The position numbers and the translations under genes were made by a program. 64,000 bases of DNA from Collinsella aerofaciens ATCC 25986 (lineage in GTDB: Bacteria; Actinomycetota; Coriobacteriia; Coriobacteriales; Coriobacteriaceae). Position 1 is the first letter of the stretch. Every line of letters begins with the position of its first letter. Below the pieces are notes generated by a model, which saw only the letters and a list, made by a program, of their open reading frames with translations, had not been told where the DNA came from and did not search any database. Shown in pieces: positions 9,189 to 43,321 of the stretch. The stretch is taken from contig NZ_CP048433.1 of NCBI RefSeq assembly GCF_010509075.1, forward strand, positions 2,232,001 through 2,296,000. The letters are read 5' to 3'.

Positions 9189-9455
9189 GCTGGTATTCCT
9201 ATCGTGTTTGCCGCCCCAGAGGCGGAGTCGTTCGGCAGTATTGTGGCACAGGGCGTCCAATGTTCAAACGTATTACATCATCCGTAACGTTTGGTAACAC
9301 TTCAATTGCCGTCAAATAGGGGCCCAGGTCGTGCGTTTGCCGTGCGCTGATGGCTGCGAGGGGCAAGAAACCCCATATAACGTGTACACTATGGAGGTTA
9401 TTTTCGTTCATTCACGCGGGTGGGCACCGGCTCCCCGCCAACAAGAGGGGGAACC

Positions 9456-11054
9456 ATGGATCAAAAGGCTTCCGCAAAGGTCCTCGTACTCGACTTTGGT
9501 GCGCAGTACGGTCAGCTCATTGCCCGTCGCGTCCGCGACCTCAACGTGTATTCCGAGATCGTCCCCTGCGACATCTCGGCCGACGAGATTCGCGAGATGA
9601 ACGCCTCTGCGCTCATCCTTTCCGGCGGCCCGGCCTCCGTGTACGCCGAGGACGCTCCGTCCATCGATCCTGCCATCTTTGACCTGGGCCTTCCCGTCCT
9701 GGGCTTTTGCTACGGCCATCAGATCACGGCCGTGACGCTCGGCGGCAAGGTCGGCCACTCCGAGGTGGGCGAGTACGGCCGCGCCACCATCACGCGCACG
9801 GCAGGCGCCAAGCTCTTTAACTCCACGCCCATAGAGCAGACCGTGTGGATGAGCCATCGCGACGCCGTTTCCGAGGTGCCCGAGGGCTTTACCGTTACCG
9901 CCAGCACCGACGTGTGCCCGGTTGCTGCCATGGAGTGCGTCGAGCGCAAGATCTTCACCACGCAGTTCCACCCCGAGGTCAAGCACTCCGAGTACGGTCA
10001 GCAGCTGCTGAGCAACTTCCTGTTTGAGATTTGCGGCCTGGAGCCCAACTGGAGCATGGACAACCTGGTTGAGACCATGACGGCCGAGTTCCGCGAGAAG
10101 GTCGGTGACGACCGCGTGATTCTGGCCCTGTCCGGCGGCGTCGACTCCTCCGTCGTGGCTGCGCTGGGCGCCCGCGCCGTGGGCAAGCAGATGACCTGCG
10201 TGTTCATCAACCACGGTCTGCTTCGCAAGGGCGAGCCCGAGCAGGTGGAGGAGGTCTTCACCAAGCAGTTTGACGTCGACTTTATTCACGTCCACGCCGA
10301 GGACCGTTATGCCGAGCTTCTGGCCGGCGTGACCGAGCCCGAGGAGAAGCGCCGCATCATCGGTACGCAGTTCTGGAAAGAGTTCTTCGCCGTGGCGCAG
10401 CAGCTCGAGACCGATGGCAAACCGGTCAAGTATCTGGCTCAGGGCACCATCTACCCCGACATCATCGAGTCCGGCGCTCGCAAGACGGGCGGCAAGACGG
10501 CCACCATCAAGAGCCATCACAACCTGATCCCGTTCCCCGAGGGCGTGCACTTCGACCTTATTGAGCCGCTCGACCACTTCTTTAAGGACGAGGTCCGCGC
10601 ACTTGGTCTGGCGCTGGGCCTGCCGGGCCACATCGTGTTCCGCCAGCCTTTCCCGGGCCCGGGTCTTGCCATCCGCATCATTGGTGCGGTCGACAAGGAG
10701 AAGCTCGAAATCCTCAAGAACGCCGACGCCATCGTGCGCGAGGAGCTCGACGCCTACAACCAGCGTCTGTTTGAGCAGACCGGCGAGCGCAACTCCGAGC
10801 ACAGCTGCTGGCAGTACTTTGCGGTCCTGCCCGACATTAAGTCCGTCGGTGTTATGGGCGACGAGCGCACCTACCAGCGCCCGATCATCCTGCGCGCCGT
10901 TGAGTCCAGCGATGCCATGACCGCCGACTGGGCCAAGCTGCCCTACGACGTGCTGGCCCGCATCTCCGGCCGCATCGTGGCCGAGGTTCCCGGCGCCAAC
11001 CGCGTCTGCTACGACATTACGTCCAAGCCGCCCGCGACCATCGAGTGGGAGTAG
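9456..11054 (+). CDS. guaA: GMP synthase (glutamine-hydrolysing)
   Basis: Converts XMP, ATP and glutamine to GMP, the last step of guanine nucleotide synthesis; 532 residues. The class I amidotransferase domain has its nucleophile in GFCYGHQI and the catalytic His/Glu in FHPEVKHSE. The ATP-pyrophosphatase loop is LSGGVDSS. The C-terminal dimerisation domain ends KPPATIEWE. ATG 9456 follows AGAGGGGGAACC. The last 16 bases before the stop are the attachment core of the integrated element. The coding end is preserved apart from the stop, TAG here and TAA in the right repeat. Confidence 0.98.
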   Translation: MDQKASAKVLVLDFGAQYGQLIARRVRDLNVYSEIVPCDISADEIREMNASALILSGGPASVYAEDAPSIDPAIFDLGLPVLGFCYGHQITAVTLGGKVGHSEVGEYGRATITRTAGAKLFNSTPIEQTVWMSHRDAVSEVPEGFTVTASTDVCPVAAMECVERKIFTTQFHPEVKHSEYGQQLLSNFLFEICGLEPNWSMDNLVETMTAEFREKVGDDRVILALSGGVDSSVVAALGARAVGKQMTCVFINHGLLRKGEPEQVEEVFTKQFDVDFIHVHAEDRYAELLAGVTEPEEKRRIIGTQFWKEFFAVAQQLETDGKPVKYLAQGTIYPDIIESGARKTGGKTATIKSHHNLIPFPEGVHFDLIEPLDHFFKDEVRALGLALGLPGHIVFRQPFPGPGLAIRIIGAVDKEKLEILKNADAIVREELDAYNQRLFEQTGERNSEHSCWQYFAVLPDIKSVGVMGDERTYQRPIILRAVESSDAMTADWAKLPYDVLARISGRIVAEVPGANRVCYDITSKPPATIEWE

Positions 11055-11264
11055 GCCGATAGGGTTCTGACCTGCGATTTTGAGTGCCGCACTGTGCCGC
11101 TGAGTTTCGTTTCGTACGAGAGTCATGGCAAAGCCGCCAGCGACGGCGTTGAGTAAATACGATAACCGAGCCTCCGTTCCCGCGTTGGGACGGAGGCTTT
11201 TTCTTTGCCGTTTTACTCCCTCTCACCTGCGATTTCGCGATTTACTCCCCGTGTTTCGAGACAG
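11038..11264. repeat. Left attachment repeat (attL)
   Basis: The stretch matches 47168-47395 with roughly 85-90 percent identity by eye. It begins with the 16-bp core and includes the guaA terminator and two TTTACTCCC boxes. Similarity starts abruptly at the core, inside guaA, and ends near GTGTTTC at 11251-11257. Confidence 0.85.
11169..11203 (+). terminator. Terminator downstream of guaA
   Basis: The arms AGCCTCCGT (11169-11177) and ACGGAGGCT (11190-11198) are followed by TTTTC. The same hairpin recurs in the right repeat. Confidence 0.9.
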
Positions 11265-11584
11265 CAAGGCACGGGGCGGTATTCGGAGGAATGGGAGTAA
11301 TGATTTATCCCTAGTGAGTAGACGCGCTGTTTTTGTCCCCGAGGGCGAAAACAGGCCGTTTCAGGGCCCGTGAAACTCAAATCGAACTCAATAGGCTTTT
11401 CGGCAGCCTCCGCACGGCGTTTCCCCAGGTGGTTAATGGGGAGTAAAGAATCTCGCCGTCCCAAGGAAAACGGGAGTAACCAGGGGAAATGCCGCGGCGT
11501 ACTGCCGCGTGCCGTCATATAAGCCACCGCGTCATTTACTCCCCAGGAGCGCCGAAAATGCCTTGACATGCAATGGGGAGTAAA
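11212..11584. repeat. Cluster of seven GGGAGTAAA boxes, candidate integrase arm sites
   Basis: The octamer GGGAGTAA or its complement occurs at 11212-11220, 11241-11250, 11293-11300, 11438-11447, 11472-11479, 11535-11544 and 11575-11584. The same sequence overlaps the guaA end (GGGAGTA at 11047-11053). The stretch has no gene. Repeats on both strands beside the crossover core, near int, are what tyrosine integrase arm-binding sites look like. Confidence 0.6.
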
Positions 11585-11671
11585 AACTCAGCAGACGCAG
11601 GAGCGGGCGGCGATCACCGCCTAGTCTGGCGTTCTGATTTGGTTGCGTTGATTGCAAAAAGCTAGGAGTCG

Positions 11672-12085
11672 CTACAGCGAGGCTTTCCAGTCCTCGTACT
11701 CGCTGTCGTCGATCTCGCCGTTCTCGAGCTGCGCGCGCTTCTCTGCCCACAGCTTGATGGCCATCGCGGCTTTGGGTGCGTGCGGAGCCTTGGGGTTCAG
11801 GGAGAGCCCCGAGCCGTCGGCTGCGGGCACGATGCCGAAGGAGTCCTCCAGCCGCACGAGCAGCGACATGAGGTCGCCTGCGGTCTCGACGCCGTAATCC
11901 TTGAGGGCGTTGACGGACACGCCGAGCGCTGCGGCGATGGATTCGAGCAGTTCGGGCTTCACGGCGCGGATGCCGCTCTCGTAGTGGCGCACGGCCCCTT
12001 CGGTCAGGCCGACCGCCTCGGCGAGCTGCGCCTGCGTCATGCCGCGCAACTTGCGGTACCGCCTTATGTTCTCGCCTACGGACAT
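11672..12085 (-). CDS. XRE-family regulator of the ICE integration module
   Basis: A 137-residue protein with an N-terminal Cro/CI helix-turn-helix at about residues 5-60 (MTQAQLAEAVGLTEGAVRHY holds the recognition helix). A C-terminal part of about 75 residues ends DDSEYEDWKASL. The start follows a strong GGAGGAGGG site; a TTG 60 bp upstream would only add leader residues. It is divergent from xis-int. Immunity-type repressors of this position keep xis and int silent in many ICEs, and the GTACG-rich gap between them is the likely operator. The boxes of the attachment cluster lie just downstream. Confidence 0.85.
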   Translation of the reverse strand: MSVGENIRRYRKLRGMTQAQLAEAVGLTEGAVRHYESGIRAVKPELLESIAAALGVSVNALKDYGVETAGDLMSLLVRLEDSFGIVPAADGSGLSLNPKAPHAPKAAMAIKLWAEKRAQLENGEIDDSEYEDWKASL

Positions 12086-12104
12086 GCGCCCTCCTCCTGG
12101 AATT

Positions 12105-12225
12105 ACGTACCCACACATCTTATCAGCGTACGCAAATGTACGCAATTCTATTGACAGTACAGATATGTACGTTTACTCTGAATCTGTAAACCGTACGTAT
12201 GCGTACGCTGTTGATAGGAGGAACC
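12105..12225. promoter_or_regulatory. Divergent promoter region with repeated GTACG motifs
   Basis: Between the XRE gene and xis, GTACG or TACGTA occurs at least six times. The best pairs have the form GTACG-N5-GTACG-like (near 12129-12143) and GTACGTATGCGTACG (near 12193-12207). TTGACA near 12151 may be a -35 box. Repeated half-sites between divergent genes fit an operator for the XRE protein. Confidence 0.6.
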
Positions 12226-12429
12226 ATGGACGAGAAGGTGGCGAAGACGCCGAGGCCGCACATGCTGGATGCCGACGAGGTCGCGGAGCTGCTGAGGATT
12301 AAGAAAGGCAGCGCCTACGAGGTGATCAGGAAGATAAACGCCGAGCAGGAGGCGCGCGGGCGCGTGGTGATCCGCGGGCGCGTCCGGAGCGACGTCTTCG
12401 ACGCCTTGTACTTCCCGGAGGTGGACTGA
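12226..12429 (+). CDS. xis: Excisionase-like DNA-binding protein
   Basis: A 67-residue protein with a MerR/excisionase-type winged helix: MLDADEVAELLRIKKGSAYE is the typical HTH_17 start. The C-terminal part is basic (GRVVIRGRVRSDVF). ATG 12226 follows AGGAGG; a frame start at 12199 has no such site. The integrase begins 1 bp after its stop, so the two are translationally linked. In tyrosine-integrase ICEs this protein bends the attachment DNA and directs excision. Confidence 0.8.
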   Translation: MDEKVAKTPRPHMLDADEVAELLRIKKGSAYEVIRKINAEQEARGRVVIRGRVRSDVFDALYFPEVD

Positions 12430-12430
12430 C

Positions 12431-13501
12431 ATGCCCGTGTACAAGGACGACAACAACGGCACGTTCTACGTGCAGTGCTACTACCGCGACGCCCGCGGCT
12501 CGAAGCGCCACAAGACGAAGCGCGGCTTCTCCTCCGAGGTGGAGGCCGCCGTGTGGGAAGGCCAGTTCAAGAGCCTTAACGGCGGGGCCATGGATATGAC
12601 GTTCTCCGAGTTCGTCGAGGTGTACGCCTCCGAGGTGAAGCCTCGCATACGCGAGCACACGTGGATCACCAAGGAGTACATCATCAACGACAAGCTCGTG
12701 CCGTTCTTCGGTGACATGCGCATGTGCGACGTGAGGCCGATCGACGTCATCAGGTGGCAAAACGAGCTCACCGAGCACCGGGACGCCGAGGGGAAGTCCT
12801 GGGCGCCGACCTACCTGCGCACAGTGAACAACCAGCTAAACGCCATCTTCAACCATGCCGAGCGCTACTACGGCCTCACCGACAACCCGGTGCGCAGGGT
12901 CGACAAGATAGGCTCGAAGAAGGGCGGCGAGATGCAGTTCTGGACCAAGGACGAGTACCTGAGGTTCAGCGAGGCCGTCATGGACAAGCCGCTCTCGTTC
13001 CATGCCTTCGAGCTGCTCTACTGGACGGGCATACGCTGCGGCGAGCTTCTGGCGCTCACGCCGTCCGACTTCATGCTGGAGAGCTCCCGGCTTCGCATCA
13101 ACAAGTCGTACCAGAGCCTCCACGGCGTGGACACCGTGACCGACCCCAAGACGCCCAAGTCGGTGCGCACGATCGTCATGCCCGCCTTCCTGCGCGACGA
13201 GATGGCGGACTTCATCGAACTGCGCGACGACGTTGCGCCCGACGAGCGCCTGTTCGCCGTGACCAAGCACTTCCTGGCCCACGAGATGGAGCGCGGGTGC
13301 AAGGCGTCTGGAGTGAAGCGCATCCGCGTACACGACATACGCCACAGCCATGTGAGCCTGCTGATCGAGATGGGCTTCTCCGCGCTGGCCATCGCCGAGC
13401 GCATGGGCCACGAGGCGGTGGACATCACCTACCGCTACGCGCACCTGTTCCCCACGAAGCAGGACGAGATGGCCGCCGCGCTCGACGGAGCGAGGGGGTA
13501 A
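12431..13501 (+). CDS. int: Tyrosine integrase of the ICE
   Basis: A 356-residue site-specific recombinase. The N-terminal 50 residues form the AP2-like arm-binding domain (GTFYVQCYYRDARGSKRHKT). A SAM-like core-binding domain spans about 55-155. The catalytic domain holds R202 (TGIRCGELLAL), H301 and R304 (HDIRHSHVS), H327 (RMGHEAVD) and the nucleophile Y336. All catalytic residues are present, so it should be active. It lies about 1.4 kb from the guaA attachment core and is the best candidate for integrating and excising the whole element. Confidence 0.95.
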   Translation: MPVYKDDNNGTFYVQCYYRDARGSKRHKTKRGFSSEVEAAVWEGQFKSLNGGAMDMTFSEFVEVYASEVKPRIREHTWITKEYIINDKLVPFFGDMRMCDVRPIDVIRWQNELTEHRDAEGKSWAPTYLRTVNNQLNAIFNHAERYYGLTDNPVRRVDKIGSKKGGEMQFWTKDEYLRFSEAVMDKPLSFHAFELLYWTGIRCGELLALTPSDFMLESSRLRINKSYQSLHGVDTVTDPKTPKSVRTIVMPAFLRDEMADFIELRDDVAPDERLFAVTKHFLAHEMERGCKASGVKRIRVHDIRHSHVSLLIEMGFSALAIAERMGHEAVDITYRYAHLFPTKQDEMAAALDGARG

Positions 13502-13506
13502 GAAGG

Positions 13507-13929
13507 ATGCCGTGCGAGAACAGCGCCCGCAAGCGCAGCAAGACGATGGCGTTTCGCTGCACGCCCGAAGAGCACAAGCTCATATGCGAGATGGCTGCCT
13601 GGAGCGGCATGCTCAGGCAGGACTACATCATCGCTAAGCTAACCGATACAGAGGTTGAAGTGAGGCCCTCCGTGAGCATGCAGAAGGCGCTGAAAGACTC
13701 GATGGTGGAGTTGGCCAAAGAGGTGAAACTGGCGGCCTCCTACGGCGAGTTGAGCGATTCTCTGCAGCAGAGGCTCGAACTTGTGATGAGGCTCTTCCTG
13801 GCGCTCAGCGAGCCGATAGACGCACCAGCGGAAGAGGAACCGCAAACGAAGGCGCCCTCGGCTGTGCCGAAGACGCCTGAAGCTGGCGCCGATGGCGACA
13901 TGAGCATCTTCGGGATGGGGCGCGGGTAG
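13507..13929 (+). CDS. Small MobC/RHH-like protein next to the integrase
   Basis: A 140-residue protein starting at ATG 13507, 5 bp after int, behind AAGAAGG. Residues 13-60 (KTMAFRCTPEEHKLICEMAA) have the look of a ribbon-helix-helix domain in relaxosome accessory and plasmid-type proteins: a beta strand with alternating residues followed by helices. A coiled helix follows, then a Pro/Glu/Ala-rich tail. It is probably co-transcribed with xis-int. A role in processing or regulation at the element end is inferred; the family is not certain. Confidence 0.55.
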   Translation: MPCENSARKRSKTMAFRCTPEEHKLICEMAAWSGMLRQDYIIAKLTDTEVEVRPSVSMQKALKDSMVELAKEVKLAASYGELSDSLQQRLELVMRLFLALSEPIDAPAEEEPQTKAPSAVPKTPEAGADGDMSIFGMGRG

Positions 13930-14012
13930 CGTAATATCCGAAGCTATCCTTGAAGAGTGGACGCGAAATTGGTTCTTGATCCATGTGCGCAAAAGCAGAA
14001 GATGGGACCCAT

Positions 14013-14033
14013 ACGCTGATGAAGGGTGATGAG
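14013..14033. repeat. hsdS 3' recombination repeat, copy C
   Basis: ACGCTGATGAAGGGTGAT plus three bases. It encodes ITLHQR on the minus strand and is the inverse of 18413-18433, 21 of 21 bases. Confidence 0.8.
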
Positions 14034-14508
14034 GCTGTCGAGGCGGGCGAAGTATTGACCAATTTGCTTCTGCTCTGCCGCAGACGGAACGGGAACACTC
14101 AACTCCATCACCTTGTTCTTGGAGATGTTGAATCTAGAGATTCCCTGAGCCAGCAGAGTGAGATCGGAACGAATCGAACTTGACCTGAGCATGTAGGCTA
14201 GGTAATGCGGGTCAAACGTTGAATCTTGTCTGTATCCAAAACAGAAGCTGTTGAGGTAAACATCATCCTGGTCAGAGAGCCAAACTGAGGACATGCCAAC
14301 TTCATCTGGCGTTTCGGAAGACACAGTGAAGAACGTGTCACCGTACGCAACTTTGTTTTGGCTTGAATCTATTTCGACTGTCTCGAGCCGCTTTGTGTCC
14401 GTCAGGGGATTGTCGAAGACATTGGTATACGGAACGAACCTAGCGTTGCCATGACCGAAATCTTCCTTGGTTTTACCGCTCAGACCGCCATAGGTTGTCC
14501 CACAGTTG

Positions 14509-14528
14509 CCCAACTTACGCTGTTCCCA
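14509..14528. repeat. hsdS 5' recombination repeat, copy C
   Basis: CCCAACTTACGCTGTTCCCA, encoding WEQRKLG on the minus strand. It is the exact reverse complement of 17888-17907. Confidence 0.85.
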
Positions 14529-14547
14529 GGTAGATGTATCTATGTCT

Positions 14548-14553
14548 TATAAT
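14548..14553 (+). promoter_or_regulatory. hsdR: Candidate -10 box of hsdR
   Basis: A consensus TATAAT lies 54 bp before the hsdR ATG in an AT-rich patch unusual for this region. The best -35, TTCCCA at 14523, is poor and lies in the hsdS repeat. Confidence 0.35.
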
Positions 14554-14606
14554 GATTGCCAATAGTTAAGTGCATAACTTTTTGCAGTTCGTAGATAGGT
14601 TTCGCC

Positions 14607-17600
14607 ATGGTTTTCGATAAAGAGGCCGCGTTCGAGGAAGCGGTCATCACCGTGCTGAAGCAGCACGGCTGGGACGACGCGGGGGGCGTGCTTCGCTATC
14701 CCACCGAGCAGGACCTCATCAACAACTGGGCGAAGATTCTATTCCAGAACAACGCCGACATAGACCGCCTGAACGGCTGCCCTCTCACCCAGGGCGAGAT
14801 GGCGCAGGTCATCGAACAAATCGAAACGCTCAAGACCCCGCTCGCGCTCAACGGGTTCATCAACGGAAAGACTGTCGCCATCACGCGCGACAACCCCGAC
14901 GATGCGCTTCATCTGGGCAAGGAGGTGAGCCTGAAAATCTATGATCGTCAGGAGATTGCAGCCGGCCAGAGCCGCTACCAGATCGCTCAGCAGCCTGTCT
15001 ATCCTGCGAAGAGCAAGATCTTGAACGACCGTCGCGGAGACTTGTGCCTGCTCATCAACGGCATGCCGGTCATCCATATCGAACTCAAGCGCAGCGGCAT
15101 CCCCGTCAGCCAGGCCACCGGTCAGATCGAGAAGTATGCCCACGAGGGCGTGTTCACCGGGCTCTTCCGCCTGACGCAGATCTTCGTGGGGATGACCCCC
15201 GACGAGGCGCGCTATTTCGCCAACCCCGGCACGGGCGCGTTCAACCCGAACTTCTTCTTCCACTGGGAGGACTTCAACAACGAGCCCGTCTGCGCGGGCG
15301 ACAAACCCGGAACAGACGAATGGAAGCGCTTCACCTCCACGCTGCTCTCCATCCCTATGGCACACCAGCTCATCGGCTTCTATACCGTGGCGGATAGCTC
15401 AGACGGCTGTTTGAAGGTCATGCGCAGCTACCAGTACTACGCGGCTGCTGCCATATCCGACAAGGTGCGCAGATGCAAGTGGGACGAGAGGCCCAAGAGC
15501 AGCGCCCCGGGGCGTCCTGGCGGCTATATATGGCATACCACCGGCTCCGGCAAGACCATGACGAGCTTCAAGTCGGCCCAGCTCATAGCTGACTCACACG
15601 ACGCCGACAAGGTTGTCTTCCTCATGGACCGCATCGAGCTGGGCACGCAGTCGCTCTCCGAGTACCGCGCATTCGCCGATGACGCCGATGACGTGCAGGG
15701 GACCGAGAACACGCAGGTGCTGAAGTCGAAGCTCGCGAGCGACGACCCCAAGAACCGCCTCATCGTGACCTCTATCCAGAAGATGAGCAACGTGAAGGCC
15801 GGCGAGGGCAGGATCACCCAGGCGGAACTCGACCGCCTGGCTGCCAAGCGGATTGTGTTCGTTATAGACGAGTGCCACCGCTCAACCTTCGGCGACATGC
15901 TCCAGGACATACGCCGGGCTTTCCCAAACGCGCTGTTCTTCGGTTTCACGGGCACGCCGATCCTCGACGAGAACCAGAAGAAAGGCTCCACCACCGCCAT
16001 GGTGTTCGGCGAGTGCCTGCACCGCTACAGCATCGCCGACGGCATCCGTGACGGCAATGTGCTGGGCTTCGACCCGTACATGGTGACGACCTTCGACGAC
16101 CACGACGTACGCGAGGCCGTGGCCCTCGAGCAGGCTAAGGCCTCGAGCGTCGGCGAGGCCATCTCCGACGAGCGCAAGAGCAAGGTCTTCTATCACTACA
16201 TGGACCAGGCGAAGGTCCCCATGGGTCCCATGGTTGACGGCGCTGGCAACCACATCAAGGGCATTGAGGACTTCCTGACCCGCGCTCAGTACTGGCCCGA
16301 TACGCCGCACCACGGCAAGGTCGTCGAGGACGTGCTGCGGCGCTTCCCTGTGCTTTCCCACGGCAACAAGTTCCACGCAATTCTGGCGACGAGTTCCATC
16401 CCCGAGGCTATTGATTACTACCGCGCCTTCAAGAGGGAGGCACCGCAGATGAAGGTGACGGCGCTCTTCGACCCAAGCATCGACAACGATGCCGGCTCCA
16501 CTGTGAAGGAGGACGCTCTGGTCGAACTTATCGAGGACTACAACAAAGCATATGGCCAGGAGTTTAACATTCCCACCTGGCCCGCCATGAAGAAGGACAT
16601 CTCAGCGCGCCTTTCCCATAAGAAGCCCTACGTCAACGTCGACGCCAACCGCGAGAGCCGCATCGACCTGCTCATCGTGGTGGACCAGATGCTCACGGGC
16701 TTCGACTCCAAGTGGCTCAACACGCTCTATCTCGACAAGGTCATCGACTACGAGAGCATCATCCAGGCCTTCAGCCGCACCAACCGCCTGTTCGGCCCTG
16801 ACAAACCCTTCGGCACCATCCGCTATTACCGCCGTCCCCATACTATGAAGGGCTACATCGAGGCCGCGGTGAAGCTGTACTCGGGCGACCGCCCGCTCGA
16901 CATGTTCGTGCAGAAGCTCCCGGACAATATCGCGCTGATGGACGCGCGCCTTCAGGAGATACTCATGGTCTTCGAGGCAGCTGGCGTAGGAGACCTCTCC
17001 AAGCTCCCCGCATCGCAGGAAGCCAGGCGTAAGTTCGCCAAGGAGTTCGTCGAGCTCAACGAGTTCCTCGAGGCCGCGAAGGTGCAGGGCTTCACATGGG
17101 AGCAGGACACCTATGAATTCGAGGAGGAGCCGGAAGAAGGCGAGCTGAGCGGCAAGTCCTTCTTCGTGCAGCCGGTCATCGACGAGCGGACCTACCTCAT
17201 CCTCGTGCAGCGCTACAAGGAGCTGTTCGCAGGAGGGGGCGGCCCTGGCGACGCGCCTGAAGCACCCTACGAGCTTGATGGTCATATAACTGAGATCGAC
17301 ACGGGGCTCATAGACAGCGACTACATGAACGCGAACTTCGAGAAGTGGCTGAAGTGCCTTGAGCAGGACGACGAGGGGCTCGCCGCCGCGCGCGAGGAGC
17401 TCCACCGATCGTTCGCGTCCCTGAGCCAGGATGACCAGCGCTTCGCCGAGCTGTTCCTTCACGACGTCGAACGAGGGGACGCCGCCCTGGAAGACGGCAT
17501 GACGCTGAGGGATTACATCACGACCTATGCACGCAGGGCGAAAAACGCTCAGGTCGAGCGAGTCGTTGAGGCGCTCGGCATAGATGGCGATCTTCTTGCC

Positions 17601-17807
17601 ACCATGGCTGCGCTCGACCTGGCGGAATCGAACATTAACGAGTTCGGGCGCTTCGACGATTTGAAGGACTCGGTGGACAAAGCGCGCGCCAAGGCCTTCT
17701 TTGAGCAGAAGGAGGGCAAGACGCTTCCCCTGTTCAAGGTGAACACCCGTGCGGCGGCGCTGTTGAAGAAGTTCATCCTGGAAGGCGGCTTCGACATCGA
17801 CGAATGA
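14607..17807 (+). CDS. hsdR: Type I restriction enzyme, R subunit
   Basis: The motor and nuclease subunit of a type I restriction-modification complex, 1066 residues, normal length. The nuclease motif HIELKRS lies near residue 157 after an upstream acidic residue (DLCLLINGMPV). The SF2 helicase motor has Walker A TTGSGKT near 309-315, DECH near 421, FGFTGTPI near 447, and motif VI in IIQAFSRTNR. The C-terminal helical part contacts the methylase core. The start ATG 14607 has only a weak ribosome binding site (ATAGGT). Its stop overlaps the ATG of an hsdS copy (ATGA), so the two are coupled. The methylase is on the opposite strand, an unusual arrangement. Confidence 0.95.
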   Translation: MVFDKEAAFEEAVITVLKQHGWDDAGGVLRYPTEQDLINNWAKILFQNNADIDRLNGCPLTQGEMAQVIEQIETLKTPLALNGFINGKTVAITRDNPDDALHLGKEVSLKIYDRQEIAAGQSRYQIAQQPVYPAKSKILNDRRGDLCLLINGMPVIHIELKRSGIPVSQATGQIEKYAHEGVFTGLFRLTQIFVGMTPDEARYFANPGTGAFNPNFFFHWEDFNNEPVCAGDKPGTDEWKRFTSTLLSIPMAHQLIGFYTVADSSDGCLKVMRSYQYYAAAAISDKVRRCKWDERPKSSAPGRPGGYIWHTTGSGKTMTSFKSAQLIADSHDADKVVFLMDRIELGTQSLSEYRAFADDADDVQGTENTQVLKSKLASDDPKNRLIVTSIQKMSNVKAGEGRITQAELDRLAAKRIVFVIDECHRSTFGDMLQDIRRAFPNALFFGFTGTPILDENQKKGSTTAMVFGECLHRYSIADGIRDGNVLGFDPYMVTTFDDHDVREAVALEQAKASSVGEAISDERKSKVFYHYMDQAKVPMGPMVDGAGNHIKGIEDFLTRAQYWPDTPHHGKVVEDVLRRFPVLSHGNKFHAILATSSIPEAIDYYRAFKREAPQMKVTALFDPSIDNDAGSTVKEDALVELIEDYNKAYGQEFNIPTWPAMKKDISARLSHKKPYVNVDANRESRIDLLIVVDQMLTGFDSKWLNTLYLDKVIDYESIIQAFSRTNRLFGPDKPFGTIRYYRRPHTMKGYIEAAVKLYSGDRPLDMFVQKLPDNIALMDARLQEILMVFEAAGVGDLSKLPASQEARRKFAKEFVELNEFLEAAKVQGFTWEQDTYEFEEEPEEGELSGKSFFVQPVIDERTYLILVQRYKELFAGGGGPGDAPEAPYELDGHITEIDTGLIDSDYMNANFEKWLKCLEQDDEGLAAAREELHRSFASLSQDDQRFAELFLHDVERGDAALEDGMTLRDYITTYARRAKNAQVERVVEALGIDGDLLATMAALDLAESNINEFGRFDDLKDSVDKARAKAFFEQKEGKTLPLFKVNTRAAALLKKFILEGGFDIDE

Positions 17808-18484
17808 GCGGCGATTTTGAACAGGCGAAATCGAGAGTTTGTCAATCCGAGGGGGCGTATGTGAGCGTGCGTCCCCTCGCTTCATCTTGGGAACAGCGTA
17901 AGTTGGGAGACTGCTTCGAGTTCTTGAAGAACAACACTCTTTCACGCGCTGGTTTGAATGGCGAGAATGGCACTGCTCGCAATGTTCATTACGGAGATAT
18001 TCTTATTAAGTTCGATGATTGCCTCGATGGCGAACGAAGCGATTTGCCGTTCATTACCGACGATACAGTGCTTCCCAAATTTGCTGGGTCGATACTTCGC
18101 GAAGGTGATGTCATTTTCGCCGACACAGCGGAAGACGAAGCGGCTGGTAAGTGTGTTGAACTGCGGAAACTACCCAAAGAGCCAACTATCTCGGGGCTGC
18201 ATACGATACCGGCGCGACCTCGGTTTCCCTTTGGGACGGGGTACCTGGGGCACTACCTTAATTCCGATGCATACCACAGACAGCTTCTTCCCTTAATGCA
18301 GGGGATCAAGGTAATTTCCGTTTCAAAGGCCGCACTGCAAGATACACAAGTAAGATTCCCTGGGTTGTCGGAGCAAACTGCCATAGGCGCGGCGTTGAGT
18401 GAGATCGACACCCTCATCACCCTTCATCAGCGTGAGCCGCCTCACACGATGAAGGAGGGTAAAAATGTCGATCAGCATCAATGA
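17804..18484 (+). CDS. hsdS: Type I specificity subunit, half size, coupled to hsdR
   Basis: A 226-residue protein with one target recognition domain. Residues 1-28 are not typical of HsdS. From about residue 29 it follows the family: SWEQRKLGDCFEF, then a TRD with GDILIKFDDCL, and SKAALQDTQVRFPG, ending at LITLHQR plus 20 residues. A full HsdS has two TRDs and about 400 residues, so this is a half-subunit truncated at the recombination repeat. It overlaps hsdR by 4 bp and the following recombinase by 20 bp, making one operon. It may work as a dimer, or act mainly as a donor cassette for inversion with the hsdM-linked copy. Confidence 0.85.
   Translation: MSGDFEQAKSRVCQSEGAYVSVRPLASSWEQRKLGDCFEFLKNNTLSRAGLNGENGTARNVHYGDILIKFDDCLDGERSDLPFITDDTVLPKFAGSILREGDVIFADTAEDEAAGKCVELRKLPKEPTISGLHTIPARPRFPFGTGYLGHYLNSDAYHRQLLPLMQGIKVISVSKAALQDTQVRFPGLSEQTAIGAALSEIDTLITLHQREPPHTMKEGKNVDQHQ
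17888..17907. repeat. hsdS 5' recombination repeat, copy A
   Basis: TGGGAACAGCGTAAGTTGGG. It is inverted relative to 14509-14528 (20 of 20) and 19881-19900 (19 of 20). Confidence 0.85.
18413..18436. repeat. hsdS 3' recombination repeat, copy A
   Basis: CTCATCACCCTTCATCAGCG plus TGAG. It is inverted relative to 19412-19432 (21 of 21) and 14013-14033 (21 of 21). Confidence 0.85.
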
Positions 18485-19391
18485 AGAATCGCTTTTCTGC
18501 GATTACTACTCGGAATGGATTAGCGTTTACAAAGAAGGGGCCATCCGTGAGGTCACCATGGGAAAGTACCGGCTCACGCAGTCTTGGCTTGCCAAGCTGA
18601 TTCCAGACCTCAAGATAAAAGATCTCGACCGCACTTCGTACCAGCAGCTCATCAATGGTTACGCAGAGCACCACGAGCGCCAGACAACCATGGACTTTCA
18701 CCATCAGCTTAAGGGAGCGATCCTTGACGCGGTTGACGAAGGACTCATCCCCCGCGACCCCACGCGCAAGGCCATCATCAAAGGGAAACAGCCGCGAGCG
18801 AAAAAGATCAAGTATCTCAACCAGTTTGAGCTTCATGCCATGCTCGGCGACCTTGATTTATCAGGCGGGCCGAGTTGGGATTGGCTTATTCTCATAGTCG
18901 CTAAAACGGGCTTGCGCTTCTCCGAGGCCCTTGGGCTTACCCCCGAAGACTTCGACTTCGCACATCAAACGCTCTCGGTGAATAAGACCTGGGATTACAA
19001 GAACGGCGGCGGATTCGTCCCCACGAAAAACGCCTCATCAGTGCGGAAGGTTCAACTCGACTGGCAACTCATCATGCAACTTTCCGGGCTACTCAAAGAC
19101 CTTCCACCGACTGAGCCCATATTCGCGAAGGGAAAGGTCTATAACTCGACGGCTAACAGCGTTTTAGCGCGCCACTGCAAAAATGTTGGCGTGCCTGTCA
19201 TATCCGTCCACGGGCTGCGGCATACGCATGCATCACTTTTGCTGTTTGCCGGCGTCTCCATCGCCAGCGTATCCCGAAGGCTCGGGCATGCGAGCATGAC
19301 CACCACTCAGGAAACCTATCTGCACGTCATTCAGGAGCTCGAGAACAAGGACATTGACATCGTCATGAGAGCTCTTTCGACTCTAATTTAA
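18465..19391 (+). CDS. Tyrosine recombinase of the invertible hsdS locus
   Basis: A 308-residue phage-integrase family recombinase. It has an N-terminal SAM-like domain (about 5-95) and the catalytic set R151 (KTGLRFSEALG), H249 and R252 (HGLRHTHASLL), H275 (RRLGHASMTTT) and Y285. It lacks the arm-binding domain of the ICE integrase, so it needs only core sites, as do DNA invertases of the Xer/PsrA/CreX kind. AGGAGGG precedes the ATG. It lies exactly between two oppositely oriented hsdS copies, overlapping the end of each. In SpnIII-type loci such recombinases shuffle hsdS domains between inverted repeats; the same role is inferred here. Confidence 0.9.
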   Translation: MSISINEESLFCDYYSEWISVYKEGAIREVTMGKYRLTQSWLAKLIPDLKIKDLDRTSYQQLINGYAEHHERQTTMDFHHQLKGAILDAVDEGLIPRDPTRKAIIKGKQPRAKKIKYLNQFELHAMLGDLDLSGGPSWDWLILIVAKTGLRFSEALGLTPEDFDFAHQTLSVNKTWDYKNGGGFVPTKNASSVRKVQLDWQLIMQLSGLLKDLPPTEPIFAKGKVYNSTANSVLARHCKNVGVPVISVHGLRHTHASLLLFAGVSIASVSRRLGHASMTTTQETYLHVIQELENKDIDIVMRALSTLI

Positions 19392-19954
19392 CCTGTATCA
19401 GCAAACCGCGACTCACGCTGATGAAGGGTGATAATGTCGTCGAGCCTCGCAAAGGTCGACCCGATTTGATGTTGCTCATCAGGAGATGGGATCGCTATCT
19501 CGGCATTAAGAAGGTCTTTGTTGTAAAGCCTTTTTAGAGTACTCCCTTCTAGGCTGCTCCAGCTTTTTCCGTTAAGGAATTGGAGCAGAAAGCCGTTGTC
19601 GAGTCGCTCATCATGTTGTAGCCACACGATATTGGAGTCTTGATAATACGCAGGATCACCTTGGTAAACGATGGTTCTGCCAATCGTTCCGGCAGCAGAA
19701 ATCAGAATATCGCCGACTTTTGGAAACTGATAAAGCCGCTGATACTCGTCGAAAAGTTCCCTCGAAATGAAGGCATCTGGAGTACCTCCGAAGGTGCCGA
19801 TTTTATAGAAAGGTACATCTCCTTGCTCTGTGGTCTGTTCTTTGAAAATGCGTTTGCACATGGCGACAGAACCAAGCTCTCCCAGCTTACGCTGTTCCCA
19901 AGGGTCAGTAAAACCGGCGAAGCGTATCTCAGGTACATTGGTCTTTTCCGCCAT
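19388..19954 (-). CDS. hsdS: Type I specificity subunit, half size, coupled to hsdM
   Basis: A 188-residue specificity protein that begins with the standard N-terminus MAEKTNVPEIRFAGFTDPW and continues EQRKLGELG into one TRD (GDVPFYKIGTFGG, SAAGTIGRT) and PSPDEQHQIGSTFARLDD. It stops seven residues after IITLHQR. The central helix and second TRD of a full subunit are absent. The ATG lies 1 bp after the hsdM stop with GGGAGG before it, so this copy is the one expressed with the methylase. The 3' ends of this gene and the recombinase overlap by 4 bp. The TRD differs from those of the two other copies. Confidence 0.88.
   Translation of the reverse strand: MAEKTNVPEIRFAGFTDPWEQRKLGELGSVAMCKRIFKEQTTEQGDVPFYKIGTFGGTPDAFISRELFDEYQRLYQFPKVGDILISAAGTIGRTIVYQGDPAYYQDSNIVWLQHDERLDNGFLLQFLNGKSWSSLEGSTLKRLYNKDLLNAEIAIPSPDEQHQIGSTFARLDDIITLHQRESRFADTG
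19412..19432. repeat. hsdS 3' recombination repeat, copy B
   Basis: CTCACGCTGATGAAGGGTGA plus T. It is the inverse of 18416-18436. Confidence 0.85.
19881..19900. repeat. hsdS 5' recombination repeat, copy B
   Basis: CCCAGCTTACGCTGTTCCCA, encoding WEQRKLG on the minus strand. It is the inverse of 17888-17907 with one mismatch. Confidence 0.85.
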
Positions 19955-19955
19955 A

Positions 19956-22517
19956 CTATTCACCTCCCAACAGTTTCCGCAGCTCAGCAATGCCCGCCAT
20001 ATCGTGCTCGTTGCCCGTGAGCTGGCCCAGCATCGCTGCCAACTCGCTTTCCGCCTCTGCAATCTGGTTGCATACGTCCGAATAGGTTGTCGCGTACTTT
20101 GCGTTCAGTGCGACGACCTTTGCGATGAAGTCGCTTACGACAGCATTGGGCAGCTCGAGCAAATCAGATTGCAGCGGCTCAATCCACTTCGCAGCAAGCA
20201 ATTCGTCGCACTGGGCGTCGGTCAGGCCCTCGATAACCTCCTTGGTCTTCTCCTCGAGCGCGACAAGCGCCTCCTTCCTTGCCTTTTTGAGATTTTTCTC
20301 CTCGTCGAGAAGGGACTGAGCGCGCACGAGGCCCCGCTCGAAGTCGCCGTCCGGATGCTTGCCGATGCTTTTCACGGCCTTCTTGAGGGACGCCGCCACG
20401 AACGCGCCGTCATCGCTGAAAACGTCGCTCGAGCTCTTCTCCTCCTCATCGAGGTTATCGAGAATCTCGTCGAGTTCTTGGGAGATCTCACTTAAACGGG
20501 AGTCGCGCGCGGAGATTTCCTTGACATCGTCGGCGAGCAGCTGTTCTTGGACGAGCGCAAACGGCAAGATGCGGCCCGTCCAGCCATCCTGCACCTCGAC
20601 GTCTTTGCCGTTCTTCTTTTTTATCACCATATTCGGATCGACTTTGCGCACAGCCCCTTTGCCCTCGGTTTGGATAACCTCGAGGTCGCCGGAGATGCCC
20701 GTCCACGCATCGTCGAGAGCTTGGTAGGCATCGTACCCGTCGACGAGCGCGACACCAGAGAGGGCGTCGCGGAGCCGCTCTGCGATATAATCCTCCTCGG
20801 CCACGGCATCAACCTGCGATGAGTCGTCTACCAACCTCTTCCGCAGCTCTGCGGGCAGGTGAGCCAACGCATCTCGATACCCCGCCAGGAAAGAAACGAC
20901 GTCGGCGTTGGCCTTCACCGTTGCCGCCACGTCGTCCGTCATGGAAGCAAGGCACGACCCGCCGCCCTCACCGAACAGCTGGCCCTTCAGGCTTGGCCAC
21001 ACTTTCCAGTAGCGGTCGAGAGCATCGACCTCGGCTTTCGGAACCCCACCGAACATGGTGGCATACACGTCCCAGCTCTCAGCAGCTTCGGATGAATCAA
21101 CATAGCGCGGAATGTTGAGGTTGTAATCGTTGGCGCGTATCTCGTCGATGGTCACCAGACGGCTGAACTTGTCAACGGTCGCCCCAGTCGTGACCGCGTC
21201 CACGATGCGGCGTATATCGCTCGCACGCAGTTTGTTGTTTTTGCCTTCTTTCACAAAGTGCTTTGAGGCATCCACAATCAACACGTCACTGCTCTCGCGC
21301 TGCTTGCGGAGCACCATAACGATGGTCGGGATGCCGGTGCCGAAGAAGATGTTGGCAGGAAGCCCGATGATTGCCTGGATATGGCGGTTCTCCACCAGGT
21401 TCTTGCGGATGGTGCCCTCCTCGCCGCCGCGGAACAGCACGCCGTGGGGCAGGACGATGCACATGATCCCGTCAGGGCGCAAATGGTACAAATCATGCAA
21501 AAGGAAGGCGTAATCGGCTTTGGATTTGGGAGCGACGCCGAACTTGAAGCGCGGATCGAGCTCCTTGTCTTCCGGGTCCCAATTCTGGGAGTAAGGGGGG
21601 TTCGACACAACGGCATCGACGAACAGCGGATCGTAGGTCTCGTCCTTGTTCTCGACCGTGTCGAACCAGGGCCAATCGTCTTCGAGCGTGTCGCCGTTGC
21701 GCGCTACGATGTTGTCGGGGAGTATTCCGCGCATGACCAGATTCATACGTGTGAGGTTGTACGTGTTCTCCTTAAGCTCCTGCGCATAGTATTTGATGGA
21801 GTCCGGGTCGCCGTTGCGTCGCGCCACGGCCTTGCCGATATTGATGAGCAGCGAGCCGGACCCGCTCGTGGGGTCGTAGATAGTGATGTTCTCGCGTCCG
21901 GCCAGGTGCCATGAGACTATCTCGCTCATGAGCATGGACACTTCGTGCGGCGTGTAGAACTCGCCTGCCTTCTTGCCGGCGTTGGCGGCGAAGTTGCTGA
22001 TGAGGTACTCGTAGATGAAGCCGAGCACGTCGTAGTCCTGGCGACCGTCCATCGGGATGTCTTTGATGAGGTAGATGAGGTCGCGAGCGGCCTTGGACTG
22101 GCTCCGTGCGTCGGTGCCGAGCTTGGAGAGACCGGTCCGCAGCGTGTCGAAGATGCCGTCGAAGACGCGCTTGCGAGCAGGGTCGATGTTGCGGCTAAAG
22201 GCATTGAGGGCGTCGCGAACGTTCGAAATCTCGAAGTCGCCGCCCTTGGAGACCCAGGTGGAGAAGAGGTTTTCGTAGGCGATGAAGTAGCCGCACTCGC
22301 CCTTGACGAACTCGACCGTCTCCTCGTCGTCCTCCACGAGGCTCGGCAAATCCTCTTCGGCGAAATCACGCGCCTTCAGGCGGGCAACTTCGGTCTCGGA
22401 AAGGAACTTGTAGAAGATGAAGCCCAGGATGTAGTCCTTGTATTCGTTTGCCTCGATTTTCGAGCGCATCTTGTTGGCGGATTCCCATATCTTTGATGCC
22501 AATTGCTGCTTGTTCAT
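19956..22517 (-). CDS. hsdM: Type I modification methylase, M subunit
   Basis: An N6-adenine DNA methyltransferase of 853 residues. The N-terminal HsdM helical domain spans about 1-170. The SAM-binding motif DPTSGSGSL lies at 215-223 and the catalytic NPPY at 306-309. After the usual end near residue 520 there are about 330 extra residues rich in charged helices (for example KEISARDSRLSEISQELDEI), which may be a coiled coil. That makes it longer than the 500-550 residues of most HsdM. The ATG directly abuts the stop of the GIY-YIG gene, and hsdS follows after 1 bp. The operon order is RHH, GIY-YIG, hsdM, hsdS. Confidence 0.95.
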   Translation of the reverse strand: MNKQQLASKIWESANKMRSKIEANEYKDYILGFIFYKFLSETEVARLKARDFAEEDLPSLVEDDEETVEFVKGECGYFIAYENLFSTWVSKGGDFEISNVRDALNAFSRNIDPARKRVFDGIFDTLRTGLSKLGTDARSQSKAARDLIYLIKDIPMDGRQDYDVLGFIYEYLISNFAANAGKKAGEFYTPHEVSMLMSEIVSWHLAGRENITIYDPTSGSGSLLINIGKAVARRNGDPDSIKYYAQELKENTYNLTRMNLVMRGILPDNIVARNGDTLEDDWPWFDTVENKDETYDPLFVDAVVSNPPYSQNWDPEDKELDPRFKFGVAPKSKADYAFLLHDLYHLRPDGIMCIVLPHGVLFRGGEEGTIRKNLVENRHIQAIIGLPANIFFGTGIPTIVMVLRKQRESSDVLIVDASKHFVKEGKNNKLRASDIRRIVDAVTTGATVDKFSRLVTIDEIRANDYNLNIPRYVDSSEAAESWDVYATMFGGVPKAEVDALDRYWKVWPSLKGQLFGEGGGSCLASMTDDVAATVKANADVVSFLAGYRDALAHLPAELRKRLVDDSSQVDAVAEEDYIAERLRDALSGVALVDGYDAYQALDDAWTGISGDLEVIQTEGKGAVRKVDPNMVIKKKNGKDVEVQDGWTGRILPFALVQEQLLADDVKEISARDSRLSEISQELDEILDNLDEEEKSSSDVFSDDGAFVAASLKKAVKSIGKHPDGDFERGLVRAQSLLDEEKNLKKARKEALVALEEKTKEVIEGLTDAQCDELLAAKWIEPLQSDLLELPNAVVSDFIAKVVALNAKYATTYSDVCNQIAEAESELAAMLGQLTGNEHDMAGIAELRKLLGGE

Positions 22518-23351
22518 CTACTTATCCTCGCTTCTGTAAACTTGGTTGAGCGTTTCACCGTCGTTGTCCACCCATTCGGTCCAGCCATTCTGGCTGCCGC
22601 CGAGCACGAATACCGCGGCGGCACTGGGCGTCGGGAACTCGAGATCTTCGGCGAGTTCTGCGATACCGCCCGAATCGCCGAAGATCTCCCTGCGCGAGGC
22701 CGCGACGGCCGCGTTCTTCAGCGCGGGTTTGGAGAGGTTCACCTTCGAGCCGGCGAGAACCGTGAAGTGCCCAGTGGCTTTATCGTAGCGCCCTGATCCG
22801 CGTATCCCGTTCTTCTTCGTATGGAAGACGACCGAGGCGCCGGCGGGACCCTGGTCGACCCTGTCGAGGTCGTACCCCAAAGCTGACATCCTGAAGAGGA
22901 TCCTCTCGTGCAGGCGCTCGACGGCCTCTTCCTTGTACGGGTCGACGTAGGGCTTGGGCGTCGCCGAGTTGTCAGTCTCGTACGAGCCGTGGGTGCGCAC
23001 GTAGTCGATGGCCTTCGCCTCGAGGACGTCCAGCGCGTCCCTGCTGATGTTCTGATCGTCATCGAGGAACATGACGGCCTTGTTCCAGAACTCCTTCTTT
23101 GCCTTGTGTGCGTCGAGCCGGGCGATACCCTGGGTCGTCTGCCCAGCGTAGACGCGGCTCACGTTGCCGTGGTCCTCGTCGAGCAGGTAGTAGATGCCGC
23201 GCTGCGGGATGTTCGGCAGCGACTTCGCCTCGGCAAGGTCCTCCCTCGGAACGACGACGGTCACAAGCGACTCGCCGTCGATGCGGCAAATACGTATGCG
23301 GTCCGGCTGCGCGTCTATGAGCTGGACGGTGAAGGTCTTGACCCGAATCAC
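22518..23351 (-). CDS. GIY-YIG nuclease family protein with DUF4357
   Basis: A 277-residue protein. The N-terminal half holds a GIY-YIG-type fold (GIYYLLDEDHG then VYAGQTTQGIARL, with the supporting EFWNKAV and LEAKAIDYV). The C-terminal half ends in the DUF4357 signature (GGSQNGWTEWVDNDGETL). GTG 23351 is the likely start, just after the stop of the RHH gene. The gene abuts hsdM without a gap, so it belongs to the modification operon. GIY-YIG/DUF4357 proteins are often seen next to restriction systems; whether this one cuts DNA is not known. In the second signature the usual YIG is YAG. Confidence 0.8.
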   Translation of the reverse strand: MIRVKTFTVQLIDAQPDRIRICRIDGESLVTVVVPREDLAEAKSLPNIPQRGIYYLLDEDHGNVSRVYAGQTTQGIARLDAHKAKKEFWNKAVMFLDDDQNISRDALDVLEAKAIDYVRTHGSYETDNSATPKPYVDPYKEEAVERLHERILFRMSALGYDLDRVDQGPAGASVVFHTKKNGIRGSGRYDKATGHFTVLAGSKVNLSKPALKNAAVAASRREIFGDSGGIAELAEDLEFPTPSAAAVFVLGGSQNGWTEWVDNDGETLNQVYRSEDK

Positions 23352-23353
23352 GC

Positions 23354-23566
23354 TTATGCCCCCTTCTTCGCGAGCTCTTCGATCATGCACGTGCGCACGA
23401 AGGCGGAGAAGCTCATGCCCCGTAGGGCCGCTTCCTCCTTTGCCGCGTCACGCAAGGTGTCGGGGATGCGCAGGGTCACGGAGACCTGGTCTCCCTCTAC
23501 CAGGAAGCTTCTGATCTCGGTTTCGTCGGGGTTGCCCTTGATGAGCTCCTTGTAGCTGCCAGGCAT
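23354..23566 (-). CDS. Ribbon-helix-helix regulator, first gene of the hsdM operon
   Basis: A small protein of about 70 residues. Residues from 28 (DQVSVTLRIPDTLRDAAKEE) show the beta strand and first helix of an RHH domain, and GMSFSAFVRTCMIEELAKKG gives the second helix. The start at 23566 is preferred because GGGAG lies six bases upstream; an ATG at 23578 is also possible. Its stop is 2 bp from the GTG of the GIY-YIG gene. It may autoregulate the operon, or be the antitoxin half of an antitoxin/GIY-YIG pair. Confidence 0.7.
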   Translation of the reverse strand: MPGSYKELIKGNPDETEIRSFLVEGDQVSVTLRIPDTLRDAAKEEAALRGMSFSAFVRTCMIEELAKKGA

Positions 23567-26842: not shown

Positions 26843-27052
26843 CTATGGCGTCCGACACTTCGGTCGGGCGTCCATAGCACTTGGGGACCGGGCGGCCTCG
26901 GATCCGTCATGCCGCGGGCCGTTCGGGAGCCCGCTTTCGCGAGGCCCGGTCCCAGAGGCGGTGCCCGAGCCGGGCCGCCGCCTGCGGGGGATCCCCCGCG
27001 CCCCTAGAGAGACGCGCCCGCCGCACGGCGGGCGCGAGGAAAGGAATCCGCC
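26843..27052. promoter_or_regulatory. Candidate origin of transfer (oriT) with nested inverted repeats
   Basis: This 210-bp gap directly precedes mobC and the relaxase. It contains a hairpin at 26843-26877 (CTATGG and CCATAG outer arms, CCGAC and GTCGG inner arms). A second repeat has arms GGGACCGGGC (26884-26893) and GCCCGGTCCC (26944-26953). Further GC palindromes lie near 26987-27000 and 27017-27042. Inverted repeats beside the relaxosome genes are typical of oriT; the nick site cannot be placed by eye. Confidence 0.55.
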
Positions 27053-27499
27053 ATGGAAGAGGAAGCCGGCACCGCCAAAGGCAAGGAGCGCCGCGTCACG
27101 TTCCGCATGGAGGGAGGCGACTACGACGCGCTCTGCGAGCGGTGCGAGCGCGCCGGCCTCAGCAAGTCGGAGTACCTGCGCTACCTCGTGCGCATACCGC
27201 TGTCGACGGAGGCCAACGCGGGAGACGAGCACCGCATACTCGTGGACCGCAGGGCCCTGTGGGCGATGTCGCGGGAGCTCACGAAGTGGGGCTACCACTA
27301 CAACCAGGCCGTGCACGCGATGAACCTCATCAACTTCCACGCCCGCCACGGGCACGTCGACCGGGACCTCGTCGCGGAGAGCATCCCGACGATCGAGCGC
27401 GAGCTCGCCGACGTGAACGCCGCGGCCCGCGAGATGACGGCGGAGCTCGGGCGCATCGGCGCCGACTCGCTCGTGGAGGGCTCGCCATGCCGATCCTGA
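27053..27499 (+). CDS. mobC: MobC-type relaxosome accessory protein
   Basis: A 148-residue protein with a ribbon-helix-helix N-terminus (RRVTFRMEGGDYDALCERCE) and the MobC motif ELTKWGYHYNQAVHAMNLI near residues 80-98, matching the family pattern in which a Gly/Asn-Gln pair precedes an Asn. It binds oriT and helps the relaxase nick DNA. AGGAAAGG precedes the ATG. Its 3' end overlaps the relaxase gene by 13 bp. Confidence 0.88.
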   Translation: MEEEAGTAKGKERRVTFRMEGGDYDALCERCERAGLSKSEYLRYLVRIPLSTEANAGDEHRILVDRRALWAMSRELTKWGYHYNQAVHAMNLINFHARHGHVDRDLVAESIPTIERELADVNAAAREMTAELGRIGADSLVEGSPCRS

Positions 27500-29443: not shown

Positions 29444-29539
29444 CTAGTCCCGGTCGTCGTCGCCGGCTGCGCAGCAGGCGTAGGCCGTGAGCGTGAGGAG
29501 CCCCATGAGGAGCCCTATTCCGAAGGGCGCGAATCCCAT
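29444..29539 (-). CDS. 31-residue DUF3789-like small membrane protein
   Basis: The last minus-strand gene of the transfer operon. Its start lies inside the sortase 3' end, behind GGAGGTGGAAGG, a very strong site. The product MGFAPFGIGLLMGLLTLTAY continues to CCAAGDDDRD: one hydrophobic helix and an acidic tail. Size and place match DUF3789 proteins of Tn916/Tn1549-like elements. Function unknown. Confidence 0.65.
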   Translation of the reverse strand: MGFAPFGIGLLMGLLTLTAYACCAAGDDDRD

Positions 29540-30246: not shown

Positions 30247-30248
30247 GT

Positions 30249-30295: not shown

Positions 30296-30318
30296 GGTTC
30301 GGTGTCGATGCAGAGCCG

Positions 30319-42529: not shown

Positions 42530-42586
42530 CCCGCGCCTCCCTTCCAGTCGAGATGAAAAAGGGGCGCCTTCGCGCCCCGGTCGTCC

Positions 42587-43291: not shown

Positions 43292-43321
43292 CCGTCCGCG
43301 CCTCCACGGGAAGCGCACAAG

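Follow-up and report, generated by a model that had tools for sequence, protein, structure and literature searches.

Several type I restriction-modification (RM) systems are known in which target recognition domains (TRDs) of the specificity gene hsdS change places; statements on them refer here to excerpts of the cited papers. They are compared with a locus in a 64-kb stretch of the genome of Collinsella aerofaciens ATCC 25986 (contig NZ_CP048433.1, positions 2,232,001 to 2,296,000), hereafter the window, and with the corresponding loci of its relatives, designated L036 etc. The window locus consists of hsdR, hsdM and three hsdS pieces with one TRD each, situated around a tyrosine recombinase gene on a candidate integrative and conjugative element (ICE). 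SsuCC20p of Streptococcus suis is also a type I RM system on a mobile element, and its TRDs are flanked by identical sets of short repeats and change places, which is described as two concurrent inversions or place switching; the recombinase of the locus is required, and the hsdS gene following it contributes to methylation. It differs in having 14-bp repeats of another sequence and four TRDs, two of which form a functional hsdS, and in being found, in that report, in streptococci only (PMC10790761). The Spn556II/SpnIII (cod) locus with its recombinase PsrA/CreX also has a tyrosine recombinase gene surrounded by an hsdM-linked hsdS and silent copies, of which one holds just one TRD, and it shares a 15-bp inverted repeat as well as inversions and excisions giving short hsdS forms; it differs in having three distinct inverted repeats (15, 298 and 85 bp) and in being present throughout the species (PMC4948785, PMC7096588).

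Similarity was also found in three other cases, again as far as the excerpts go. The SpnIV tvr locus shares a tyrosine recombinase, TvrR, the shuffling of TRDs and, for one allele, a suggested half-TRD dimer, but it acts by excision of circles and reintegration and has the regulators TvrA and TvrT (PMC6265443). Loci of Bifidobacterium longum NCIMB 8809 and CCUG 30698, also a gut actinobacterium, contain hsdR, hsdM, several (partial) hsdS genes and a recombinase, whereas their rearrangement was raised just by analogy with other organisms (PMC4618763). In the process named DOMO, the type I S genes of Helicobacter pylori have the structure x-(TRD1)-y-x-(TRD2)-y, a TRD moves between positions 1 and 2, and two TRDs may be reduced to one; however, no dedicated recombinase is named in the excerpts (PMC3077401).

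By most of the tested features, the window locus belongs with the recombinase-associated phase-variable type I RM systems such as SpnIII and SsuCC20p, a kind already known. The window contains complete hsdR and hsdM genes, several different hsdS pieces that bear TRDs and a gene for a site-specific recombinase; its TRDs stand between inverted repeats, and related genomes have a different TRD at the hsdM-linked position. An hsdM-linked hsdS with two TRDs is absent in the window and present in most of the relatives. It is likely that the locus is a recombinase-associated TRD-shuffling type I RM system, carried as cargo of the ICE and now in a state collapsed by deletion. The initial annotation, made from the letters of the window, regarded the mobile cargo as a novelty; this is not supported, since SsuCC20p resides on a mobile element according to the excerpts (PMC10790761).

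Near the left end of the ICE, slot A on the minus strand is followed by hsdR, slot B and the recombinase, all on the plus strand, and then by a one-TRD hsdS and hsdM, both on the minus strand. Slot A is a TRD cassette at 14013-14528, antisense and upstream of hsdR (14607-17807), and lies between two short repeats, named here the 3' word (14013) and the 5' word (14509-14528). The sole start codon of this piece is a TTG inside the 5' word, and slot A is probably silent. Slot B (17804-18484) is a half hsdS overlapping the hsdR stop codon and composed of a 28-codon leader, a TRD and a tail, with its 5' word at 17888-17907 and its 3' word at 18405-18433 (starting near 18413). The recombinase gene occupies 18465-19391 (Pfam PF00589, Phage_integrase, 5.7e-17). 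Slot C is fused to the hsdM-linked start and forms the one-TRD hsdS (19388-19954), whose product has the end ITLHQRESRFADTG; its 3' word is at 19412-19441 and the 5' word, common to slot C and the hsdM-linked start, at 19881-19900, both on the minus strand. The hsdM gene (19956-22517) encodes 853 amino acids.

The Pfam domain Methylase_S was found in all three hsdS pieces (E-values 1.1e-5 in slot B, 2.7e-25 in the hsdM-linked piece, 6.8e-7 in slot A). The adjoining genes contain the HsdR and HsdM domains of Pfam and score above the NCBIfam cut-offs of TIGR00348 (hsdR) and TIGR00497 (hsdM). The three one-TRD pieces, the recombinase and the repeats thus stand where the initial annotation had put them. 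It had further placed the recombinase between two expressed copies: the position is confirmed, whereas the expression was assumed rather than observed. The slot B leader differs by two synonymous and six other codon changes from that of L038 and by one and four, respectively, from that of L037, with no changes relative to L036. Judging from these changes, the leader appears free of constraint at the protein level and lends no support to expression of a slot B protein.

One pair of words bounds each TRD. The 5' word CTTGGGAACAGCGTAAG encodes WEQRK, and the 3' word ATCACCCTTCATCAGCGT encodes ITLHQR. With at most one mismatch, the 16-mer of the 5' word and the 15-mer of the 3' word occur at three places each in the window and at no other; the single mismatch allowed in the 5' 16-mer is that of the slot A copy. 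At the same threshold, GGGAACAGCGTAAG is found at three places in the whole genome, all at the locus, and the backwards control word has five matches. TRD pieces were sought by a protein motif in 113 loci, that is, the window, 80 loci from genome_contigs (recombinase relatives kept from 331 related stretches) and 32 from IMG/VR, and 58 of these loci contain 147 cassettes in total. The 120 cassettes that start with WEQRKL use the codons GAA (120/120), CAG (120/120), CGT (118/120) and AAG (118/120), the background shares of these codons in the accompanying hsdM and hsdR genes being 0.49, 0.65, 0.21 and 0.56. The constancy stops at the next codon, where leucine is encoded by TTG in just 67 cassettes of 120. 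The end ITLHQ is present in 142 cassettes, with codons ATC (139/142), ACC (141/142), CTT (142/142), CAT (138/142) and CAG (139/142); in the hsdM and hsdR genes of these loci, CTT makes up 0.18 of the leucine codons and CGT 21% of the arginine codons. The exact start TGGGAACAGCGTAAG is shared by 134 of the 147 cassettes. Over the 147 cassettes, both words are nearly fixed at synonymous sites, the counts not being independent, as the cassettes are mutually related and the loci were picked by recombinase similarity.

A word count over 396 genomes of the class provides a check free of locus selection. Of the 37 genomes that have the recombinase (E 1e-60), 32 contain the 14-mer GGGAACAGCGTAAG, 27 of them in at least two copies, whereas 9 of 359 genomes lacking the recombinase contain it, once each; the backwards control word is likewise present as a single copy in 9 genomes out of 396. 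One of the nine genomes that have the 14-mer and lack the recombinase, G041, contains a partial recombinase relative at a contig edge. The 5' word tracks the recombinase across the genomes of the class. The ends of the two words (17888-17904 and 18413-18436 in slot B) share CAGCGT(A/G)AG in most cassettes, perhaps a common recombinase half-site.

We infer that the recombinase acts on the words because of this association and by analogy with PsrA, for which inversion between IR1 repeats was shown in vitro (excerpts of PMC7096588); which way the deletion went, that activity was lost and that the locus switches in culture are likewise inferred. Like words would recombine, an inverted pair leading to inversion of the interval and a direct pair to its excision. 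Paired events at both words would shift a TRD between slots and leave the intervening genes unturned. In the usual state, hsdM would be followed by a two-TRD hsdS, and the remaining TRDs would be kept in silent slots. As regards the window, four cassettes were probably removed by a deletion between direct words (5' or 3', which are indistinguishable here).

The nearest named relative by recombinase is C. aerofaciens BSD2780120875b_170604_F5 (L036). Its recombinase protein is 100% identical, its hsdR is 99.6% identical, and the same ICE lies at its guaA gene. The TRD linked to hsdM in the window stands in slot B of L036, behind hsdR (483/483 bases), with flanks only 32% and 30% alike, and the alignment breaks at the words. 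As the initial annotation had anticipated, one and the same TRD is linked to hsdM here and to hsdR in a relative, with breakpoints at the repeats.

Among the 28 cassettes of six close loci (the window and L036-L040) there are nine homologous TRD pairs (at least 80% identity over at least 85% of the length), eight in different slots and one in the same slot. The initial annotation would have been refuted by relatives keeping the same TRD at each position; they do not, and the outcome speaks for movement. Four of the eight moved pairs have flanks 16-32% alike on both sides. For L038 E/L040 D, one of the two flanks is missing, slot D of L040 being labelled by order as the contig ends there. The remaining three (L036 M2/L038 M1, L037 D/L040 C and L037 C/L038 D) have at least one flank 52-84% alike. 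Position within hsdS may also change, as in L036 M2 and L038 M1 (96.3% identity). Between the window's slot A TRD and TRD1 of the hsdM-linked S in L056, identity is 95.1%, with flanks of 25% and 20%, the backbones (recombinase, hsdM, hsdR) of the two loci being 71-73% identical. Of 23 between-locus pairs with at least 85% identity, 13 have a cassette identity 10 or more points above that of the recombinase, although these pairs are not independent.

Nine loci (L042, L045, L051, L065, L069, L071, L097, L098, L114) each contain a cassette pair 99.6-100% identical in two slots, which suggests copying besides moving. Divergence between the window and L036 is 4.2% to the left of slot A (8413-14042), 0.2-0.5% from hsdR to the recombinase (14508-19432, TRDs aside) and 1.9% from hsdM to 26995; the hsdR-recombinase core may have been exchanged recently.

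The 5' words of slots C and D in L036-L040 face apart, with 28 bp between them. This spacer occurs in one orientation in L036, L037 and L039 and in the other in L038 and L040; all 10 pairs fit the predicted orientation better, the grouping having been made after seeing the data. The clearest pair is L037/L038, with 27/28 matches in the reversed and 7/28 in the direct comparison. A 557-bp segment of L037 (TRD C and the spacer) is reversed in L038 (90%), and a 542-bp segment with the spacer and TRD D on its other side is reversed in L040 (90%). Since the neighbouring TRD moved along with the spacer in both informative pairs, the footprint fits the 3' words, and the turned unit would be the stretch between them with the TRD at the far end replaced. 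For the same reason, the idea that the spacer marks an inversion at the 5' words was dropped.

The recombinase is codirectional with hsdR in 24 of 26 loci having hsdR at more than 50% identity within 1 kb, and opposite in L063 and L097; outside this cut it is opposite in L067 and L070 (just over 1 kb) and in L074 (hsdR of 33% identity). A single inversion at the 5' words separating the window from L036 was rejected, as the recombinase would then be turned in one of the two, whereas it is codirectional with hsdR in both. The initial annotation had expected inversion at the 5' repeats to turn the recombinase as the usual outcome. This expectation is not supported: the gene is turned in none of the six close loci and in two of the wider 26, and the footprint points to the 3' words. 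As the recombinase stayed unturned despite exchange of TRDs across it, either two events, at the 5' and 3' words, or conversion would have taken place. The TRDs of SsuCC20p swap positions in a comparable manner (PMC10790761).

One possibility is that TRDs are exchanged by RecA-dependent gene conversion or by horizontal transfer at short homologies, the tyrosine recombinase being incidental. We consider it improbable: homology alone would hardly account for the near-fixation of the words at synonymous sites and for the association of the 5' word with the recombinase, reversed units were found, and about 20 bp is short for RecA. Still, cassettes 95-96% identical in backbones of about 70-73% (L056/window, L037/L056) mean that TRDs do pass from strain to strain and from species to species, the recombinase keeps its orientation in the six close loci, and SpnIII recombination was reported to be independent of known recombinases (excerpts of PMC6620402).

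The evidence for collapse comes from the comparison with L036, which has seven cassettes and an S protein of 405 residues with two TRDs; the window has three cassettes and an S protein of 189 residues. Following the recombinase, L036 contains slot C, two cassettes of opposite orientation and the two-TRD hsdS adjoining hsdM, whereas the window contains an hsdM-side leader, one TRD and a recombinase-side tail. The latter arrangement would result in one step if about 2.3 kb were lost between direct words of either type; it probably represents a collapsed derivative, four of seven cassettes having been lost. The hsdM-linked S was readable in 25 of 30 loci (hsdM match of at least 55% identity reaching the C-terminus, the window included); it has a two-TRD length of 388-425 residues in 20 of these and is short in five, namely the window, L054, L095, L101 and L144.

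The hsdM-linked S protein of the window stops eight residues after ITLHQR, at the end given above. The ends of two-TRD S proteins resemble ITLHQRKLELLRNTKKSLLDRMFV in 19 of 20 cases, judged by eye, L051 being different. The equivalent stretch after TRD1 aligns with a conserved region of 1YF2, presumably a helix. A pattern search for the conserved C-terminal stretch in all frames of 11-24 kb gave no match. As this S has one TRD and lacks the stretch, the restriction enzyme in the window state is probably inactive or altered. The initial annotation assumed two working specificity genes; this is not supported, as neither half gene has the conserved stretch.

On the other hand, the one-TRD S could be a working half subunit. 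Two copies would dimerise and bind HsdM, a palindromic split site would be methylated, and exchange would swap one palindrome for another. An engineered half-HsdS with the central conserved region does dimerise and methylate a palindrome (excerpts of PMC6158711), half-TRD dimerisation was proposed for the tvr system (excerpts of PMC6265443), and the recombinase-S-hsdM order with a short S is repeated in L095 and L144. However, the window S ends before the stretch aligned with 1YF2, the pattern for which is unmatched in 11-24 kb, and the truncated pneumococcal alleles A7-A9 gave no methylation motif (excerpts of PMC4948785). A working half subunit is thus unlikely, and a collapsed two-TRD system is preferred. 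L095 and L144 have no hsdR match in the DNA at hand; the collapsed state may recur in them.

The locus might also be a frozen remnant that no longer rearranges, the differences in arrangement being old. The apparent loss of four cassettes and of the S end would agree with this, and the case for switching is comparative. However, the recombinase frame is open, its protein is 100% identical to that of L036, and it has the R, HxxR, H and Y motifs, which we take to be catalytic. The identity of the moved TRD over 483/483 bases means that the move was recent. A frozen remnant is therefore considered improbable.

Several observations weigh against the preferred explanation, a TRD-shuffling system in a collapsed state. 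Firstly, the short hsdM-linked S recurs in four other loci (L054, L095, L101, L144), so that a one-TRD S might be a working state, and the choice of loss by the window over gain by L036 relies on L036 and three other close loci with a two-TRD S. Secondly, slot B of the window and slot C of L036 are only 71% identical, which means that the two loci are not separated by one clean exchange. Thirdly, the unit has two TRDs, of which just one matches in each of the reversed pairs; the close loci give no example of inversion at the 5' words alone, the footprint fitting the 3' words, and the recombinase reads with hsdR in 6/6 of them although the flanking words are inverted. Fourthly, 5 of the 37 recombinase genomes lack the 14-mer. 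Finally, the comparison covers single assemblies, so that switching within a population is a prediction.

By its gene content, the element of the window is an ICE, and the placement of the restriction locus on it by the initial annotation agrees with the end repeats and transfer genes. The attL-like left end repeat, overlapping the 3' end of guaA (11038-11257), matches the attR-like right one (47168-47387) in 197 of 220 bases, and the adjacent 200 bases on the two sides match in only 64/200 and 54/200. The repeats enclose about 36 kb at guaA. The element encodes a tyrosine integrase with an Arm-DNA-bind domain (12431-13501, plus strand; PF14657, PF14659, PF00589), a MobA/VirD2-like relaxase (26881-28758, plus; PF03432, 5.5e-13), a VirB4-like conjugal transfer ATPase of the CD1110 family (36978-39713, minus; NF045971, 889 bits, cut-off 325) and a VirD4-like coupling protein of the CD1115 family (40161-44033, minus; NF045973, 513.8 bits, cut-off 250). 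Its other content includes a sortase, an adhesin-like protein and an NlpC/P60 protein. At 29515-33060, the sortase stands beside an adhesin-like cargo protein, whose domains are of the thioester, T-Q ester-bond and SpaA types. A DUF4357 protein is encoded directly upstream of hsdM (22518-23390), with counterparts in L037, L038 and L039 and one split into two pieces in L036. The genome has a second type I system, L176.

No occurrence of Collinsella or Bifidobacterium was found in the main text of a REBASE survey (PMC7394358), and none of the papers found for Collinsella with hsdS is about restriction, judging by title. The word GAACAGCGTAAG matched a kiwifruit paper alone, and the term Coriobacteriia was absent among the matches listed for such systems. 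No description of the ICE host, of the natural footprints or of the word constancy over these loci was found in the excerpts searched; this is weak evidence of novelty, as most subscription papers were outside the coverage.

A more speculative interpretation, which we hold possible and somewhat doubtful, is that the TRDs are integron-like cassettes. The word pair, kept in loci of Actinobacteria and Firmicutes, would admit any TRD to any slot of any locus with the recombinase, possibly via capture of excised circles. Specificity domains would then form an interspecies pool independent of the R, M and recombinase genes.

The locus adds a conjugative element from a common gut genus to the known cases of recombinase-associated switching of specificity. 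Natural genomes demonstrate the fate of such a locus over time, with TRDs changing slots, units turned and cassettes lost. The near-constant words provide a handle for finding and decoding such loci and for testing the exchange of TRD cassettes between species.

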